Source: Deltaproteobacteria bacterium
Lineage (GTDB): Bacteria; Myxococcota; JADLHZ01
Direction of reading: 5' to 3'
DNA: 64,000 bases
Assembly (NCBI GenBank): GCA_020848545.1
Contig: JADLHZ010000025.1
Span: 62,001-126,000, forward strand
Part shown: piece by piece, positions 54,757-63,498 of the stretch
Layout of the letters: the number at the start of each line of letters is the position of its first letter
Numbering within the stretch: position 1 is the stretch's first letter
Program-made: the position numbers and the translations under genes
Notes under the pieces: generated by a model
Told to the model about the DNA's origin: nothing
Database searches by the model: none
Seen by the model: the letters and a program-made list of their open reading frames with translations, nothing else

Positions 54757-57700
54757 ATGCTCCACGCTCTCGCGCTCGTATTGTCTCTCACAGCGGACGA
54801 CGGTCGCGTCGAAGTGCCGCTGCAGAAGTGGGAACAGATGCAACAAGAGCTCGCCCAGCGCGCCGAGCTCGAGAAGCCACCGCTGCCGGTCGCGCAGCTC
54901 GAGCGGCGCATCGACGGCACCTTCAAGCGCGGCGTCTTCACCGGCGACCTCGTCGCGCGGTTTCGCTACTTCGGCGGCGGCGGCCACGCGCGCGTCCCGG
55001 TGATCGACGGCACCGCGGCGGTGGCGTCGGTGACCTTGAACGGCAAGCGCACGTCGCTCCTGAAGGAAGGCGACATGTACACCGTCGGCCTCTCCGAGCC
55101 CGGCGTTTACGAAGTTCGTGCGCGGTTCTTGTGGGGCAAGGAGCAAGATCGCTTCGCGCGGCGGCTGCGCTTTCGCGTGCCCGAGGCCGGCACCACGGCG
55201 GTGAGTGTGCTCTTGCCGGAACCAGACATCGAGGCGCGGCTCGCGAAGGGGGCGATCGCAGCGCAGACGAATGCGCAAGGCGGCACGCTGCTGAAGACGC
55301 ACTTGGACGCCGCCGGCCGCTTCGATCTCACCTGGGCGCGCAAGCTGACGCACAAGGGGCAGGCGAAGGCGCGGCTCGAAGCGCGGCAGTACACGGTCTT
55401 CTCCCTGCAAGATGCCGTGACGAGCGGCGTGTCGGTGTTCGACGTGAGCGTGCTCGAGGGCGAGACCGATCGCGTGGATCTGTTGGTGCCGCCGGGCGTC
55501 GAGGTGTTGCGCGTCGAAGGCGAGGCGGTGCTGCAATGGCAGAGCGATCCGCGCGCGCCCGAGCTCTCCGTCTTGCTGCGCTACCTGCTCGAAGGAACCA
55601 CGCGCATCGCGGTGCACTTTCAATATCCGTCGGACGCGAAGGGCGCGACGCTGATGCTGCCAACGGCGAAGACGGCGACGCTCACTGCCGGCGCGCTCGG
55701 TGTGGCGGCGGCCGGAGGGCTGGCTGTGTCTGTCCGATCAGCGGAGCAGGCGACCGCGCTCGAAGCGCACGACATCCCGCCCGAGCTCAACGAGCTCACG
55801 AACGCACCGCTCGCGCTCGCTTACACCCACACGGCGGCGCCGAAGATCCAACTCGGCCTCGTTCGTCAGGAAGACGTGGCGGTGACGAGCACCGTCATCG
55901 ATGAGCTGCAGGCGTCGACCGTCCTCATCGAGAGCGGCCGCGAGATCACCAAGATCAAGCTGCGCGTGAGAAACAACGCGCGCCAGTACTTGAGCGTCGT
56001 GCTGCCGAGCGCCGCCGAGCTCACGCATTCGCTCGTCGACGGTCAGGCGGTGCGCCCGGCGGTCAGCGGGGCCAACACCTTGCTCTTCCCCTTGCGGCAA
56101 AGCGAGAAGCTCGGCGCCGGCAAGACGAAGAGCCACGCCGTGCGCGACGGCGAGACGCTGAGCAGCATCGCCAACCTCTACTACTCGGATCCGACGAAGA
56201 CGCGCTTCTTGCTCGAGCACAACACCGACGTGCTCGCCGACGAGAACGATCTGCAGGTCGGCAAGGTGCTGCGCATCCCGCAAAAATCCGGCGCCGTCGT
56301 CGAGGAGTCGAGCTTCGTCATCGAGCTCGCGTACAAGCAAAAGAGCGCGAGCATGGGTTGGCTCGGGCGCCGAGAGATCGCGCTGCCCAAGCTCGACGTG
56401 GCGATCACCGACGCGACTTGGCACGTGTATCTATCGCCCGAGCTCGAGCCGCTCTCGTTCGCGTCGAACTTGGTGCAGTACTCGGCGATTCGCTACGACC
56501 CCCTGCGGCGCTTGCGCGACTTTCTGCGACTTGGCGCCAAGAACGCCTGGGCCGGGGGCGGCTATCAGAGCATCTTGAAGCAGCGGCGCGGGATCTGGGA
56601 GGCCGAGGTCGAGCGCAAGAACGCCGCGAGCGACGCCGTGCTGACGACCTTTCCGCTGGTCGGCGAGCGCTACCGCTTCAAGCGCCTGTTGCTGAAGGAG
56701 GAGCAGCCACAGCTCGCCGTCGTCTACGTCGCGCGTGAGATCGCGGCGGCCATCCCGTGGATCGTCTTCCTCGCGAGCGCGGCCGTCGTCCTCTTCGTGC
56801 GCCGGCACCGGCGTTGGTTCGCGCGGCCGGTTGCCCGCGCTGGCGCCGCGGGCCTCGCCTTGCTCACGCTCTTCCTTGCGCACTACTTTCTCGGCGTGCA
56901 TCGGCGCGTGCTCTGGGGCGTCGATCTCGCGCTCCTCCTGTCTCTCCTCGCTGACGCCCGCCTCGGGTTTCTGGCGAAGGCGGCGCCCTACGCGGCGTCG
57001 CCCTGGCGCCTCTTCGAGCTCGTCAGCGTGCGCAACTGGCTCTTGCTCGTCGGGCTTTGTTGCGGCGTCCTCGTCATCCTGAGCTACCCGCTCTTGCTTT
57101 CGACCTTCACCCTCGTCGCGCTCGGCTTCCTGAGCTATCGTCGCGCGCGCTTTTTGCCCGCCGCCGCGGCGCTCTTGTTGCTGTGGGCGCCGGACAACCT
57201 GCGCGCGCAGGACGACGACGTGCAGAGCGATGACGCGCAGTTCGGCGAAGAGCCGCCCGAGCCCGCCCCAGAGCCGGCGGCAGAAGACGCGCAGCCGGCC
57301 GGCAAGAACGACGCGGCCTTCGATCAGCTCATGGAGCAGAACGAAAATCGCCGCCCGGTGCCCCGGCCGTCGCCGCAGGCGTTGGTGGCGCCGAGCGAAG
57401 GCAAGGCCACGGTGCCGCTCGTCGAGTACATGCGCGTCGTGCGCGCGCTCGAAGCGGCGCGCAAGAAGGACACGGTGAACCCCGGGCCGGCGGTCGTGCT
57501 CGGCGCGGCAGACTATTCCGGCGAGGTGAAGAACGGCGCGCTCGCGTTGACCATGCGCCTGCAAGCGACGCTCGGGCAACCCGGGCGGTGGAAGAGCGTG
57601 CCGCTGATTGGCGAGTCGGTCGTGCTCGCGAGCGCCAAAGACGAGCACGGCCAGGCGCTGCCGATCGTGCGGCAAAACGGCTACCACGTCTGGCTCACGC

Positions 57701-59565
57701 AAGCGGCCGCCGAGACCTCGTTGACGGTAGAGCTCCTGGTGCCCGCACGCGGCCCTCGCGGCTCGATCGAGTACGACTTCCCGGTGCCGCGCACGCCGGT
57801 GACGCACGTGCGCACACACTTTGCGCAAGCGGGGCTCGAGCCTCGCCTCGACGCCGCGGTGCAAGCCAAGGTGGAGCGCAGTGGCGCCGGCACGACGCTC
57901 GACGCGACGCTGCGCCCGACCACGCGGCTGCACCTCGTCGGCTTTCGTGAGGTCGCGGACGCCGGCGGCCAGAAGGCGAAGGTCTACGCCGAGACCTTGA
58001 ACTTGCTCTCGGTCGACGCCGGCAGCCTCGAGCTCTTCAGCGTGCTGCGCTACACGATCCTCTACGGCGGCGTGAAGGACTTTCACGTGCTCGTGCCAAA
58101 GGGGTTCACCGTCGTCTCGGCGGAAGGAGAGGGCGCCTTTCGCTATGTCGTCGAGGCGAGCGACGCAGGCACGCTCGTCCGCGGCGAGACCGAGCTGCCG
58201 ATCAGAAACGCGTACGAAGTGTCATTGCGCCTGCGCCGGGAGCTTCCGCGCGCGACCGACGAAGCGCTCAGCATCGACGCGCCCTTGCCGCGGCCGCAGC
58301 GGGTCGAGCGTGACGCCGGCTGGCTCGGCATCGAAGTGCCGGGCAAGCTGCAGCTGCAAGAGAAGGCGATCGCCGGCGTGCTTCCCGTCGATGTTCGGCA
58401 ACTACCGCCAGACATGGTCGAGAGCTCGGTCAGCCCTATCTTGAAGGCCTATCGTTACCACGCGGCCGACGCGGCGGTGACGCTCGCGGCGACGCGGCTG
58501 CCAGAGAAGGACCCGAAGGGCGCGTCGATCGACCGCCTCGTCGCGTCTTCGCTGCTCTCGCCCGAAGGCACGCTGCTGACCGATCTGAGCGTCACCTTGC
58601 GCAATCGCCTGCGCCCGAGTCTGGTGCTCGCGTTGCCCGAGGGCGCCACCGTGGTGTCGGCGCTGATCGACGGTCAGCCCGTCAAGCCGAGCCGAGATGC
58701 CGGCGGACGCTTGACCTTACCGCTCGTGCGCTCGGGCGGCGACGATCGCCTGCGGCCCTTCACGGTGCAGCTCGCGCTCGAGCAGAACGTGGGCCGGCTC
58801 GGATGGATAGGCCGCCCCACGCTCGCGCTGCCGAGCGTCGATCTGCCGATCTCGTCGTTGCGCTGGGTGGTCTACGTGCCCGAGCGCAACGTCTATTCGC
58901 GGCTCGAAGGCGATCTGGACGGCCAAGTGCTCGCCGGAGAAGCGAGCTGGCACCAGCCGTCGACGCACAGCGAAGTGCTGCGCGCCCAGGCGACCGTGGC
59001 GCCGCTCGCCCGCGCGGGCCTGAGCGCGCCTGCGACCGGCGGCGGCGGCGCGATGTCGGTGCGCCCGGCGGTGCCGCACGTGGGCCGCCCGCTCGCGCAC
59101 CGGCGTTTTTGGATCGAGAATGATCAGCCGATGACGGTGCATTTTTGGTACCTGCGCAACGCGCTCACGCTACCGATCGGGTGGCTGTCGGCGCTGCTCG
59201 TTGCCGTCGCTGTGGCGGTGGTGAGCTTGGTCAACGATCGCCGGCGGCGCTTGGCAGGAGCGACGCTCGCCGTGCTCTCGTGCATTCCCGCTTACAAGCT
59301 CATCGGCAGCGACGCGGTCGTGCTCGCGCTGCTCTGCGGCGGCCTGTTCGCGGCGGCGCGGCGCGGCCTGCTTCAGCGTGCATGGACGAGCTTCATCGGC
59401 GAGGTGCGCGCCATGCCGCAGCGCTTCGCCGCAAGGGCGCGGCCGCAGCGGACCAAATGGCAATGGCTCATGCATGCGGCCGTCACAGCCGCGATGGCGG
59501 TGACGGGTTGCTTCTTCATCATCTTGTTGCTGCGCGTCGTCTGGCTGCTTGGCCGCCCGCTTTGA
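54757..59565 (+). CDS. Giant internally duplicated envelope protein with one LysM domain
   Basis: Protein of 1602 aa with a short N-terminal signal (MLHALALVLSLTADDG). It consists of two homologous beta-rich modules. Module 1 spans about 15-660 and module 2 about 875-1460. Matching pieces are 'VPLQKWEQMQQELAQ' with 'VPLVEYMRVVRALEA', 'SVVLPSAAELTHSLVDGQAV' with 'VLALPEGATVVSALIDGQPV', and 'MGWLGRREIALPKLDV' with 'LGWIGRPTLALPSVDL'. Module 1 alone carries a LysM domain (about 456-510, 'AVRDGETLSSIANLYYSDP') for peptidoglycan binding. Several membrane helices lie between the modules (about 661-812) and at the C-terminus (about 1465-1600), so both modules should be periplasmic. An acidic/Pro-rich linker (about 815-860) joins them. 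I know no named family of this architecture. Confidence 0.8.
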   Translation: MLHALALVLSLTADDGRVEVPLQKWEQMQQELAQRAELEKPPLPVAQLERRIDGTFKRGVFTGDLVARFRYFGGGGHARVPVIDGTAAVASVTLNGKRTSLLKEGDMYTVGLSEPGVYEVRARFLWGKEQDRFARRLRFRVPEAGTTAVSVLLPEPDIEARLAKGAIAAQTNAQGGTLLKTHLDAAGRFDLTWARKLTHKGQAKARLEARQYTVFSLQDAVTSGVSVFDVSVLEGETDRVDLLVPPGVEVLRVEGEAVLQWQSDPRAPELSVLLRYLLEGTTRIAVHFQYPSDAKGATLMLPTAKTATLTAGALGVAAAGGLAVSVRSAEQATALEAHDIPPELNELTNAPLALAYTHTAAPKIQLGLVRQEDVAVTSTVIDELQASTVLIESGREITKIKLRVRNNARQYLSVVLPSAAELTHSLVDGQAVRPAVSGANTLLFPLRQSEKLGAGKTKSHAVRDGETLSSIANLYYSDPTKTRFLLEHNTDVLADENDLQVGKVLRIPQKSGAVVEESSFVIELAYKQKSASMGWLGRREIALPKLDVAITDATWHVYLSPELEPLSFASNLVQYSAIRYDPLRRLRDFLRLGAKNAWAGGGYQSILKQRRGIWEAEVERKNAASDAVLTTFPLVGERYRFKRLLLKEEQPQLAVVYVAREIAAAIPWIVFLASAAVVLFVRRHRRWFARPVARAGAAGLALLTLFLAHYFLGVHRRVLWGVDLALLLSLLADARLGFLAKAAPYAASPWRLFELVSVRNWLLLVGLCCGVLVILSYPLLLSTFTLVALGFLSYRRARFLPAAAALLLLWAPDNLRAQDDDVQSDDAQFGEEPPEPAPEPAAEDAQPAGKNDAAFDQLMEQNENRRPVPRPSPQALVAPSEGKATVPLVEYMRVVRALEAARKKDTVNPGPAVVLGAADYSGEVKNGALALTMRLQATLGQPGRWKSVPLIGESVVLASAKDEHGQALPIVRQNGYHVWLTQAAAETSLTVELLVPARGPRGSIEYDFPVPRTPVTHVRTHFAQAGLEPRLDAAVQAKVERSGAGTTLDATLRPTTRLHLVGFREVADAGGQKAKVYAETLNLLSVDAGSLELFSVLRYTILYGGVKDFHVLVPKGFTVVSAEGEGAFRYVVEASDAGTLVRGETELPIRNAYEVSLRLRRELPRATDEALSIDAPLPRPQRVERDAGWLGIEVPGKLQLQEKAIAGVLPVDVRQLPPDMVESSVSPILKAYRYHAADAAVTLAATRLPEKDPKGASIDRLVASSLLSPEGTLLTDLSVTLRNRLRPSLVLALPEGATVVSALIDGQPVKPSRDAGGRLTLPLVRSGGDDRLRPFTVQLALEQNVGRLGWIGRPTLALPSVDLPISSLRWVVYVPERNVYSRLEGDLDGQVLAGEASWHQPSTHSEVLRAQATVAPLARAGLSAPATGGGGAMSVRPAVPHVGRPLAHRRFWIENDQPMTVHFWYLRNALTLPIGWLSALLVAVAVAVVSLVNDRRRRLAGATLAVLSCIPAYKLIGSDAVVLALLCGGLFAAARRGLLQRAWTSFIGEVRAMPQRFAARARPQRTKWQWLMHAAVTAAMAVTGCFFIILLLRVVWLLGRPL

Positions 59566-59566
59566 T

Positions 59567-60799
59567 TCACTTCTTGAACAACTTACTGAAGATCCCGCCG
59601 CCCCCGTTCTTCACCGGCTGATGCTTGCCGCTGTCGGCGCGCATCGCCATCAAGCGAAGCTCACGCTGCGCGTTGATGTTCTTCGGATCGAGATCCAAGC
59701 ACTTTTGAAAGTTATTGCGGGCCTTCTGGTTCTCGCCTTCGGCCTTGTGGATGCGGCCGAGGCACTCGAAGGCCCGTGCGAGCTGTGGCTGGATCTCGAT
59801 CGCTTTATGCACCGCGGCGATGGCTTCAACCGCCTTGTGCTCGGCGGAATAGAGCGCCAGGCCGTACAAGGCCCAAAATTCGGCCTCGCCAGGGTTGATC
59901 TCCTTCGCCAGCGTGAGCTCCTTGAGCGCGCCTTGGAATTCGCCGCGGGTGAGCAGCGCGTCGCCGCGCTTGAACGCCGACTCGGCGCGCATAATCTCGC
60001 TGACGTCGGTCGGGAGCCCCTTCTTCTTTCGGTCCATGATCGCGTCGTAGTCGCTGCGCTTCCGTGGATCGGAGAGGGTGTTGAACGCGTCCGAGACCTT
60101 GCCGAAGAGGCTCTCGAGCTGCAGCTTCGCCTCTTCGCCGAGATCGAGCTTGCCGTAGCGGTCGGTGTGCCAGAGCTTGGCGAGGTCGAAGTACTTCTTC
60201 TTGATCTCGTCGGCGCTCGCCTTCTCGCCCACGCCGAGCACCTCGTAATGCCCCTGCGTCTTCTGCTTCTCGAACGCCTCGCGGATCTCTTGGCGCGCTT
60301 TGGCGACCTGCGGATCGAGCGCGACGTCGCTGATCTCGTCGCGTGCGAGCAGCGCCAACGTGTCGACGAGCTCGCCCTTCATGCGCGTACGCAGGCCGGG
60401 CTTCGACGTGAGCTTGTAGCTCCCGCTCTCCTCGCTGACCGATTGTGTGATCAAGAGCTCGACGAGCGCGCGCAAGGTGTCGACGGCGTCCTTCTCGGAG
60501 ACCTTGCCGCTGTCGATCGCCGCGAGCTCGAGCGGGAGCTTCTTGTCACGCGCGACCTGCAGGATCACTGCCTTGTCTTCGGCGCGCAGCAGCCGGCGGG
60601 TGACCAGGAGATCGGTCAAGCTCTCGCCGGGGACGCTGCTCTGGGCTGAGAACGGCTTGCCCTCGTCGAAGAACACCCGGCGCTTCTTCGTCGCGAGGTC
60701 GAAGTCGACGAAGCCGCTGAAGCGCTCGCCGAGCAAGCGCATGAAGAAGCGGCGGACGCTCTCTCCGCCCTGAAACTGTGCCGACTCGGGGATGGCCAT
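59567..60799 (-). CDS. DUF4388/PATAN-like, J-domain and TPR protein
   Basis: Cytoplasmic protein of 410 aa. Residues of about 10-140 resemble the DUF4388 (PATAN) domain of myxobacterial signalling and motility proteins. A J domain at about 183-255 ('GHYEVLGVGEKASADEIKKK') carries HTD at 211-213 in place of the HPD needed to stimulate DnaK. TPR repeats (about 275-385, 'AEFWALYGLALYSAEHKAVE') follow. The altered J motif suggests a scaffold rather than an active Hsp40. It is convergent with the giant gene, separated by one base. Confidence 0.87.
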   Translation of the reverse strand: MAIPESAQFQGGESVRRFFMRLLGERFSGFVDFDLATKKRRVFFDEGKPFSAQSSVPGESLTDLLVTRRLLRAEDKAVILQVARDKKLPLELAAIDSGKVSEKDAVDTLRALVELLITQSVSEESGSYKLTSKPGLRTRMKGELVDTLALLARDEISDVALDPQVAKARQEIREAFEKQKTQGHYEVLGVGEKASADEIKKKYFDLAKLWHTDRYGKLDLGEEAKLQLESLFGKVSDAFNTLSDPRKRSDYDAIMDRKKKGLPTDVSEIMRAESAFKRGDALLTRGEFQGALKELTLAKEINPGEAEFWALYGLALYSAEHKAVEAIAAVHKAIEIQPQLARAFECLGRIHKAEGENQKARNNFQKCLDLDPKNINAQRELRLMAMRADSGKHQPVKNGGGGIFSKLFKK

Positions 60800-61176: not shown

Positions 61177-63498
61177 ATGACAGATCGCGCGCGCACCAAT
61201 GCGACCAATGCGACCAATGCGACCAATGCGAACGACGACGCCGATGAGCTCGCCCGTGAGCCCGCCGCCGCGCCGCTTCCCGAGCGCGGCCTGTTTCGCC
61301 CAAAGGGCTTGCTGGGACGGGCGCCGAAGCCGCGTTGGCCGGCCGTGCAACGCATGGCGATCACGCTCCTGCGTAGCGTCGCCGCGGCGTTCTCGCGCAC
61401 CGCGGCCGGAATGCTCGCGTTTCTTGCTGTCCTTTATATGGCCCTCTCCGGCAGGCTGCGCTCGCCACTTCCGAGCGAAGCGCTGATCGTCTTCGCCGGT
61501 GTGTGGTTTGCGCTGCTCTGGCGCACCTTTGCCATCTACGCCGCGGCCATCGAGCGCGGCGCTCTTTCCAGGGAACGCGCCTTCACCCGCAGCGCGCAGC
61601 TCGAGCTCGGGCTCCTGTTCATCGCCGCGACGGCGAGCCTCACCGCGACCCTCGGCGGCTACGGCGGCCCGCTCTATCCTTTGTTCTACGCGCTCGTCGC
61701 GTACTTCGCGGTGTTCCTCCCGTGGCAAGAGGCGTCAGCGCTCTTTCTGCTGATGATCGGGCTCGAAGCGGCGCACACCTTCGTCGCGGGGGGCGGGCGG
61801 GTCGAGACCTTCGCCTCGCACGCGACCTTCAACGCCTTCTTCGCGGTGCTCTACGCGGTGTTTCTGCGCGGCGACATCGCCCAGCGCCGCTTCCAAGTCC
61901 GCTCCAGCGTGACGCGCGAGCTCGACGCCGTGTTCGAAGACGCCCGTGAGTATCGCTTGGTCGGCGCGCTGCACGTGCATGACGAAGGCATCAGCGAAAA
62001 GCGGCGCATCTTGGGCTCGGTGTCGGCGGTGCGGGAAGCCCTCTTCAACCTGCTCGTCGTCGGCGAGAAGGCGCTGCGCCCGCGCAACCTCGCGGTCTTC
62101 GTGCTCGATCCCGCCGGCGCGCTCTTACACATGAAGGAAGTTCGGGGCTTCGGCGAAACGCTCGCCAAAGATCCGGTGCCGGCCAAAGAAGGCGTCTTCG
62201 GCGGCATTCTGACGAAGAAGGCGCCGCTGTGCTTGACGCGCCTCCACGCGTACCGCGGGCTCGCGTACTACGCGCCGGGCGAGATCGCCGCCGACGCCGT
62301 CACCGACTTCATGGGCGTGCCGATCTTCGAAGGCGAAGGCGGCCACAACGATCGGCACGTGCGCGGGGTCATCGTCTGCGATCGCACCGACGGCGACGCG
62401 TTCTTGCCGCAAGAGCTCGACTTGCTCGAGGCGCTCGCCCGCGAGGTGGCGCGGACGCTCGAGGTCGAGCGGCTCTTCGCGCAGATGGATCGCGAGCGCC
62501 GCGGCCGCGAGAAGTTCTTCAAGGCGAGCGCCGCGTTTGCGTCGACGCGAACGATCGAAGACGTGGCCGAAGCGGCGATGGCGTCGGCGAGCTCGCTGTG
62601 TGAGCCGGCGATCATGTGCCTGACGACGTGCAACGCCGATCAAAGCGAGCACGCGGTGCGCGCCGTTCGCGGCAAGCTCGCGGACTCGGTGACGCCGGGC
62701 GCGCTGCTCCGCGATTCGAGCGCGCTCGTGGCGACGGCGCTGAAGACGAAGAGCGTGCTGCCGTTGCCCGGCGTGCCGATCGGCGAGCACAGCCTGTTCG
62801 GCAAAGAGATCGCCACGTCCGGGCTCAGCGCCGCGCGGGTCTTCCCCTTGTTCGCGCAAGCGGAGCCCATCGGTTGCTGGGTCGTCGGGCTGAAAAAGGG
62901 CCCCTTCGCCGCGAACGTCGAAGGCATGTTGCATGCGCTCTCGCAGCAGGTCGCGACCAGCCTCGCCAACGCCAAGATGAACGAGGCGATGGAGAAGATG
63001 GCGACGACCGACGCGTTGACGGGTCTCTGCAACCGGCGCTTCTTCAACCAGGTGTTCGCCGAGCGCCTCGGGCTCGCCGAGCGCTACGGCCGAAAGCTCA
63101 GCGTCGTGCTCTGCGACATCGACCACTTCAAGCACGTCAACGACACCTACGGTCACCCGACCGGCGACGCGGTGTTGAAGGTCATCTCGAAGCTCTTGGC
63201 CCAAGAAGCGCGCAAGGCCGACGTCGTCGGGCGGCTCGGCGGCGAGGAGTTCTGCGTCTTGATGTCCGAAACCGACGGCGTCGGGGCCAAGCTGACGGCG
63301 GAGCGCATGCGCGAGCGGATCATGCGTGAGACCATTTTGACGGAGCACGGCAAGCTCAAAGTGACGCTCTCGCTCGGCATCGCCACCTTCCCAGATGACG
63401 CGCCCTCGGCCGACCTCTTGATCTCGCGGGCGGATGAGGCTCTTTATAGGGCCAAGCACGGGGGACGCAATCGCAGCGTCGCCTACGGAGTCAGATGA
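61177..63498 (+). CDS. Membrane diguanylate cyclase with GAF-type sensor regions
   Basis: Protein of 773 aa. A short cytoplasmic start contains a 'TNATNATNATNAN' repeat. About six membrane helices (55-215) follow, then two GAF-like regions (about 275-430 and 450-600), then a GGDEF domain with active 'GGEEF' near 688-692 and a product-inhibition I-site 'RKAD' five residues upstream. It should make cyclic di-GMP and be feedback inhibited. No EAL domain is present. It follows ftsB by 5 bases and overlaps the PhoH-family gene by ATGA, an unusual neighbourhood linking division, c-di-GMP and RNA metabolism genes. Confidence 0.92.
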   Translation: MTDRARTNATNATNATNANDDADELAREPAAAPLPERGLFRPKGLLGRAPKPRWPAVQRMAITLLRSVAAAFSRTAAGMLAFLAVLYMALSGRLRSPLPSEALIVFAGVWFALLWRTFAIYAAAIERGALSRERAFTRSAQLELGLLFIAATASLTATLGGYGGPLYPLFYALVAYFAVFLPWQEASALFLLMIGLEAAHTFVAGGGRVETFASHATFNAFFAVLYAVFLRGDIAQRRFQVRSSVTRELDAVFEDAREYRLVGALHVHDEGISEKRRILGSVSAVREALFNLLVVGEKALRPRNLAVFVLDPAGALLHMKEVRGFGETLAKDPVPAKEGVFGGILTKKAPLCLTRLHAYRGLAYYAPGEIAADAVTDFMGVPIFEGEGGHNDRHVRGVIVCDRTDGDAFLPQELDLLEALAREVARTLEVERLFAQMDRERRGREKFFKASAAFASTRTIEDVAEAAMASASSLCEPAIMCLTTCNADQSEHAVRAVRGKLADSVTPGALLRDSSALVATALKTKSVLPLPGVPIGEHSLFGKEIATSGLSAARVFPLFAQAEPIGCWVVGLKKGPFAANVEGMLHALSQQVATSLANAKMNEAMEKMATTDALTGLCNRRFFNQVFAERLGLAERYGRKLSVVLCDIDHFKHVNDTYGHPTGDAVLKVISKLLAQEARKADVVGRLGGEEFCVLMSETDGVGAKLTAERMRERIMRETILTEHGKLKVTLSLGIATFPDDAPSADLLISRADEALYRAKHGGRNRSVAYGVR
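61195..61230 (+). repeat. Four perfect 9-base tandem repeats (ACCAATGCG)
   Basis: Located in the first codons of the GGDEF gene, encoding Thr-Asn-Ala repeats. Because the unit is 9 bases, gain or loss keeps the frame. Confidence 0.85.

Follow-up and report, generated by a model that had tools for sequence, protein, structure and literature searches.

The gene at 54757..59565 on the forward strand of the window, the 64,000-nucleotide stretch of DNA that was analysed, joins in one reading frame two homologous proteins, A and B, that relatives encode as separate genes. The A–B pair forms an envelope system of two genes, conserved among Myxococcota that are mostly uncultured; none of the family libraries searched has a name for it. 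In the reading that we judge most likely, and to which we give roughly even chances, the fused gene encodes an obligate inner-membrane pair, derived from an ancient duplication and a later fusion, that is tethered to the cell wall through A and acts as a scaffold. A stress sensor comes next in the ranking, an Ost1-like handler of polypeptides is possible, and an artefact is unlikely.

The open reading frame is intact, encodes 1602 amino acids and has strong coding statistics; no second copy of the fused gene was found elsewhere in the source genome (8 Mb, 163 contigs). The earlier note on this DNA described two diverged copies with motif pairs recurring in the same order, and comparison of the halves bears this out. 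Half A (residues 15–700) matches half B (861–1500) with a phmmer full-sequence E of 3.9e-30 and a BLASTP E of 2e-22, at 27% identity across 328 amino acids. Alignment of the A and B family profiles by hhalign, whose failure the note had named as a refutation, is significant (probability 100, E 5e-48) over 481 colinear columns. The sub-modules match in register, with profile probabilities of 97% for A1–B1, 98.6% for A2–B2 and 99.8% for A3–B3, and all off-register pairs fall below 3%; the duplication thus took in the three modules as one unit. Profile comparison also relates the beginnings of the two membrane parts (100 columns, probability 88%), and comparison of the sub-modules detects no additional sequence repeats within either half. 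The predicted folds agree as well: strand order is identical, and secondary structure coincides at 89.5% of 513 aligned core positions, against 46–57% once the alignment is slid. Because the AlphaFold jobs for A and B had most alignment rows in common, the two models are not fully independent.

Each half is probably a Sec-exported inner-membrane protein with three periplasmic β modules followed by a bundle of membrane helices, a fold and topology predicted from the models. All features lie on the forward strand. Half A would begin with a short signal peptide (residues 1–14, 54757..54798, MLHALALVLSLTADD), as judged from the hydrophobic, signal-like segments that open full-length A orthologues in the alignment and from low pLDDT over residues 1–16. 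Module 1 (residues 42–198, 54880..55350), β-rich and predicted to be periplasmic, takes in the AlphaFold strands at 45–195; the similarly β-rich module 2 (200–350, 55354..55806) and module 3 (351–575, 55807..56481) follow, the last split by a LysM domain (461–508, 56137..56280). The membrane domain of A (660–795, 56734..57141), assigned from AlphaFold, sequence and conservation among relatives, contains a conserved HRRxxWGVDLAL stretch and corresponds to the block of membrane helices that the earlier note had placed between the halves. About five membrane helices and a short C-terminal tail are predicted.

Beyond the fusion junction (57142..57219), B opens with a flexible linker (822–907, 57220..57477), recognized by alignment and low pLDDT and bearing a conserved short motif, which here reads FDQLMEQN. 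Module 1 (910–1069, 57484..57963), module 2 (1070–1229, 57964..58443) and module 3 (1225–1389, 58429..58923; free of LysM in the Pfam scan) are delimited by AlphaFold and by their profile pairing with A, and the membrane domain (1468–1599, 59158..59553) by AlphaFold and sequence. At 57313-57342 in the flexible arm the motif reads AAFDQLMEQN, and most orthologues have a form like ANFDAIMxxQN; it is possible that this motif is a docking peptide.

LysM is confined to the first copy, as had been noted earlier. PF01476 matches solely at residues 461–508, with 22.4 bits against a Pfam curated cutoff of 20.9, and the domain lines up exactly with a gap in B (A 468–518 against B 1332/1333), as a clean insertion in module 3. 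Of the 12 A members, 11 match the profile, and LysM sequence is visible in the remaining A row, making 12 of 12; among B members the Pfam scan gives none of 11. The best PDB sequence match of this LysM is Kbp (7pvc, E 1e-7), and the full-length Kbp/YgaU model NF008399 reaches 31.6 bits, over the LysM part only, short of the cutoff of 134 for membership. The presence of LysM in A alone suggests that A may anchor the A–B pair to the wall. LysM domains can bind other ligands, and Kbp binds K+. Apart from LysM, neither half matches any family in Pfam or NCBIfam, where LysM-type models of NCBIfam score below their cutoffs, so that the earlier statement that no named family applies still holds. A PDB sequence search gives convincing matches for A to LysM chains only and none significant for B, and literature searches found nothing on the A–B family.

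The relatives argue against the intragenic tandem duplication that the earlier note had proposed. Homologues of the single halves do exist: at least 10 other Myxococcota genomes encode A and B separately, in neighbouring genes of roughly 750–890 codons each, which adjoin on one strand wherever the contig of a relative allows the test. In nine unfused pairs the two genes share 8 nt (ATGNNTRA or GTGNNTRA), and a GGAGGTG-type Shine–Dalgarno sequence precedes the B start in unfused pairs. In the tree, A and B form separate clades, each at 100/100, whose inner branching broadly matches. Because each is monophyletic, the duplication is ancient and the window gene is a later fusion; the broadly matching topologies indicate that A and B were inherited as a pair. 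The unfused pair is the majority state among relatives. An origin of the duplication inside one gene is therefore rejected, and the order of events is tandem gene duplication, then LysM insertion in the A lineage and, much later, fusion, here and separately once more. Contig searches found no relatives with a single-protein query and 13 with an alignment query; a profile search across 195 Myxococcota genomes gave family members in 23. The named records of relatives are MAGs of uncultured Deltaproteobacteria/Myxococcota, and most relatives are metagenome-assembled or draft genomes.

At the junction the Shine–Dalgarno sequence, the B start and the A stop present in unfused relatives are missing, and the frames are joined. 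Between the PLLLS motif and the A|Q site lie 120 nt in the window and 145 nt in the relative L021. The signal peptide of B is kept as a hydrophobic stretch inside the fused protein, RARFLPAAAALLLLWAPDNLRA|Q: Arg-rich residues at the end of A, on the predicted cytoplasmic side, are followed by a short signal-peptide-like h-region and then by LRA|Q, a putative signal peptidase site. A second fusion, of 1625 amino acids, occurs in genome G010 (locus L032), where the equivalent site is ASA|QE; the sister genome G037 is unfused. It might be argued that an assembly or sequencing indel has joined two genes that are separate in the organism, given a source genome that is a 163-contig draft and relatives that normally have separate frames. 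Such an artefact is very improbable: the whole Shine–Dalgarno/start/stop segment is gone (about 25 nt net relative to L021) rather than a single base, the reading frame is clean throughout, and the fusion in G010 is a different one. Fusion in two lineages, each with unfused near relatives, points by the Rosetta-stone argument to an interaction of A and B, and its repetition is evidence that their products work together.

In the tether reading, A and B would form obligate pairs in a 1:1 ratio. We infer physical pairing from their adjacency, the conserved overlap of the genes, the parallel trees and the repeated fusion. A would grip peptidoglycan through the LysM inserted in its module 3, B would extend its flexible N-terminal arm, and the pair would serve as a scaffold that ties an inner-membrane complex to the cell wall. 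If the modules are periplasmic, A should end in the cytoplasm, which fits its Arg-rich tail. What was once the signal peptide of B would, in the fusion protein, pass back into the membrane from the cytoplasm, and both ectodomains would thus remain periplasmic. Cleavage by signal peptidase at LRA|Q, yielding two chains, is still possible; the gene is a natural case in which to see whether bacteria process a fusion protein at a signal peptide that has stayed inside it. The envelope location proposed in the earlier note is supported, and a peptidoglycan-anchored scaffold seems a reasonable candidate function.

The neighbouring genes give no functional label, as TldD, DUF4388, GGDEF and dapF are conserved as neighbours in a single family of relatives only. 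A DnaJ-TPR protein that matches DUF4388 weakly is encoded at 59567-60799, convergently with the fusion gene and separated from it by 1 nt, and a DUF4388 gene also adjoins the A–B pair in several relatives. A GGDEF protein encoded at 61177-63498 has, close to its N-terminus, a run of (Asn-Ala-Thr)n.

Genomic context raises the alternative that A and B serve mainly to sense envelope stress: strain or ligand binding at the ectodomains would be relayed by the membrane helices to a partner in the cytoplasm. In four genomes the gene for a large anti-sigma-like protein is followed immediately by a single-gene paralogue of about 880–1040 amino acids, with an ECF sigma gene alongside in three of them, and A–B adjoins response-regulator/DUF4388 and GGDEF genes in one family of relatives. 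However, no sigma or anti-sigma gene stands beside A–B itself, and the predicted cytoplasmic parts of A and B are only short; we consider a sensor conceivable but unlikely.

The paralogue loci L037:2582-9236, L038:7286-13712 and L039:3920-10282 each encode an ECF sigma factor and an anti-sigma-like protein of 860–1000 amino acids, followed by a paralogue of about 1030 amino acids. The anti-sigma-like protein has a zinc-finger-like N-terminus and a long C-terminal region that is VWA-like by eye, and these loci look like an undescribed envelope signalling cassette. Other adjacent paralogous pairs (L034–L036) overlap by 4 nt.

Genomes of family f8 contain short secreted homologues of 378–396 amino acids (L085–L091) with the regions of modules 1 and 3. 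They occur in a two-gene unit, with a membrane protein of 422–438 amino acids, at L085:5352-7826, L086:7464-9962, L089:5888-8344, L090:7000-9510, L091:4713-7223 and L088:1614-4039; the Pfam scan gives no match for the membrane partner in L085 and L088, the two scanned. A separate observation concerns VIT domains split by an insertion of ~40–50 residues between profile positions 51–54 and 55–59, in open reading frames of about 1150–1240 amino acids (G034:C402:19052-19489, G019:C5:141323-141793, G021:C7:260038-260496 and G003:C12:123678-124136).

The AlphaFold models of A (pLDDT 80.0, pTM 0.46) and B (pLDDT 77.6, pTM 0.42) leave the orientation of the modules uncertain, given these pTM values. 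In Foldseek searches of the PDB, ribophorin I/Ost1 ranks first for both halves (E 5.4e-10 and 4.9e-10), and M1-aminopeptidase N-domains, integrin alpha chains and PIG-T appear further down both lists. Whole-length TM-scores to ribophorin I/Ost1 are only 0.17 and 0.30, with an rmsd of about 20 Å, so the likeness is one of modules. Sequence homology to the M1 N-terminal domain was rejected, since the best profile-profile probability for PF17900 is 8%, for module A1 only, and is not significant; the catalytic motifs HExxH and GxMEN are absent from the fused protein. A VIT domain (PF08487) was likewise rejected for module 3, at a probability of 0.1–0.2%, no better than shuffled sequence.

Ost1, too, has two luminal domains that resemble each other and are mainly β-sheet (PMC7226087); according to a published survey, OST1 occurs in eukaryotes and in TACK/Asgard archaea (PMC11417166). 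The pair might be a functional analogue of ribophorin I/Ost1, a non-catalytic handler of exported or modified polypeptides at the translocon, as the leading Foldseek matches of both halves would allow. This seems improbable: the Ribophorin_I profile (PF04597) matches nothing in the source genome, in 193 Myxococcota genomes or in the Pfam scan, a sequence-level match to the M1 N-terminal domain is missing as well, the structural likeness is confined to modules, and LysM points to the cell wall. The single transmembrane helix and cytosolic four-helix ribosome-binding domain of Ost1 are absent from the predictions for A and B. It would be a long shot that Myxococcota hold a ribophorin-I-like ectodomain family as an obligate A–B pair, made in the fused lineages as a polyprotein cut by signal peptidase at an internal signal peptide, and that the Ost1 luminal modules come from a wider prokaryotic pool. 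We treat the fold link as a lead and do not assign a family on it; were that link more than fold convergence, it would bear on the origin of the eukaryotic/archaeal OST subunit.

Among known sequences the unnamed Myxococcota A–B pairs (for example on JAUXGL010000011.1, JAKLGA010000008.1 and JAFCZJ010000010.1) are closest to the tether candidate described here, with the same domains in the same order, LysM in A only and, in most, 43–51% identity per half; they comprise two genes, mostly with the 8-nt overlap, whereas the window has one. The G010 homologue is likewise an A–B fusion with an internal signal-peptide-like segment, about 36% identical to the window protein, and by the tree a separate event. 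The short f8 homologues share the N-terminal VPL motif and the regions of modules 1 and 3, with 97% profile probability to B, but lack a module 2 match, LysM and membrane helices. Kbp/YgaU has the LysM subtype closest to that of A; it combines LysM with BON, a domain not found in the fused protein, which is a membrane protein of 1602 amino acids. The peptidase M1 N-terminal domain matches at the level of module folds (Foldseek probability 1.00), although HExxH and a profile match are missing here. Ribophorin I/Ost1, the best fold match of both halves, seems to share with them tandem β ectodomain modules and differs in its membrane part and in sequence membership, A and B being a bacterial pair with LysM.
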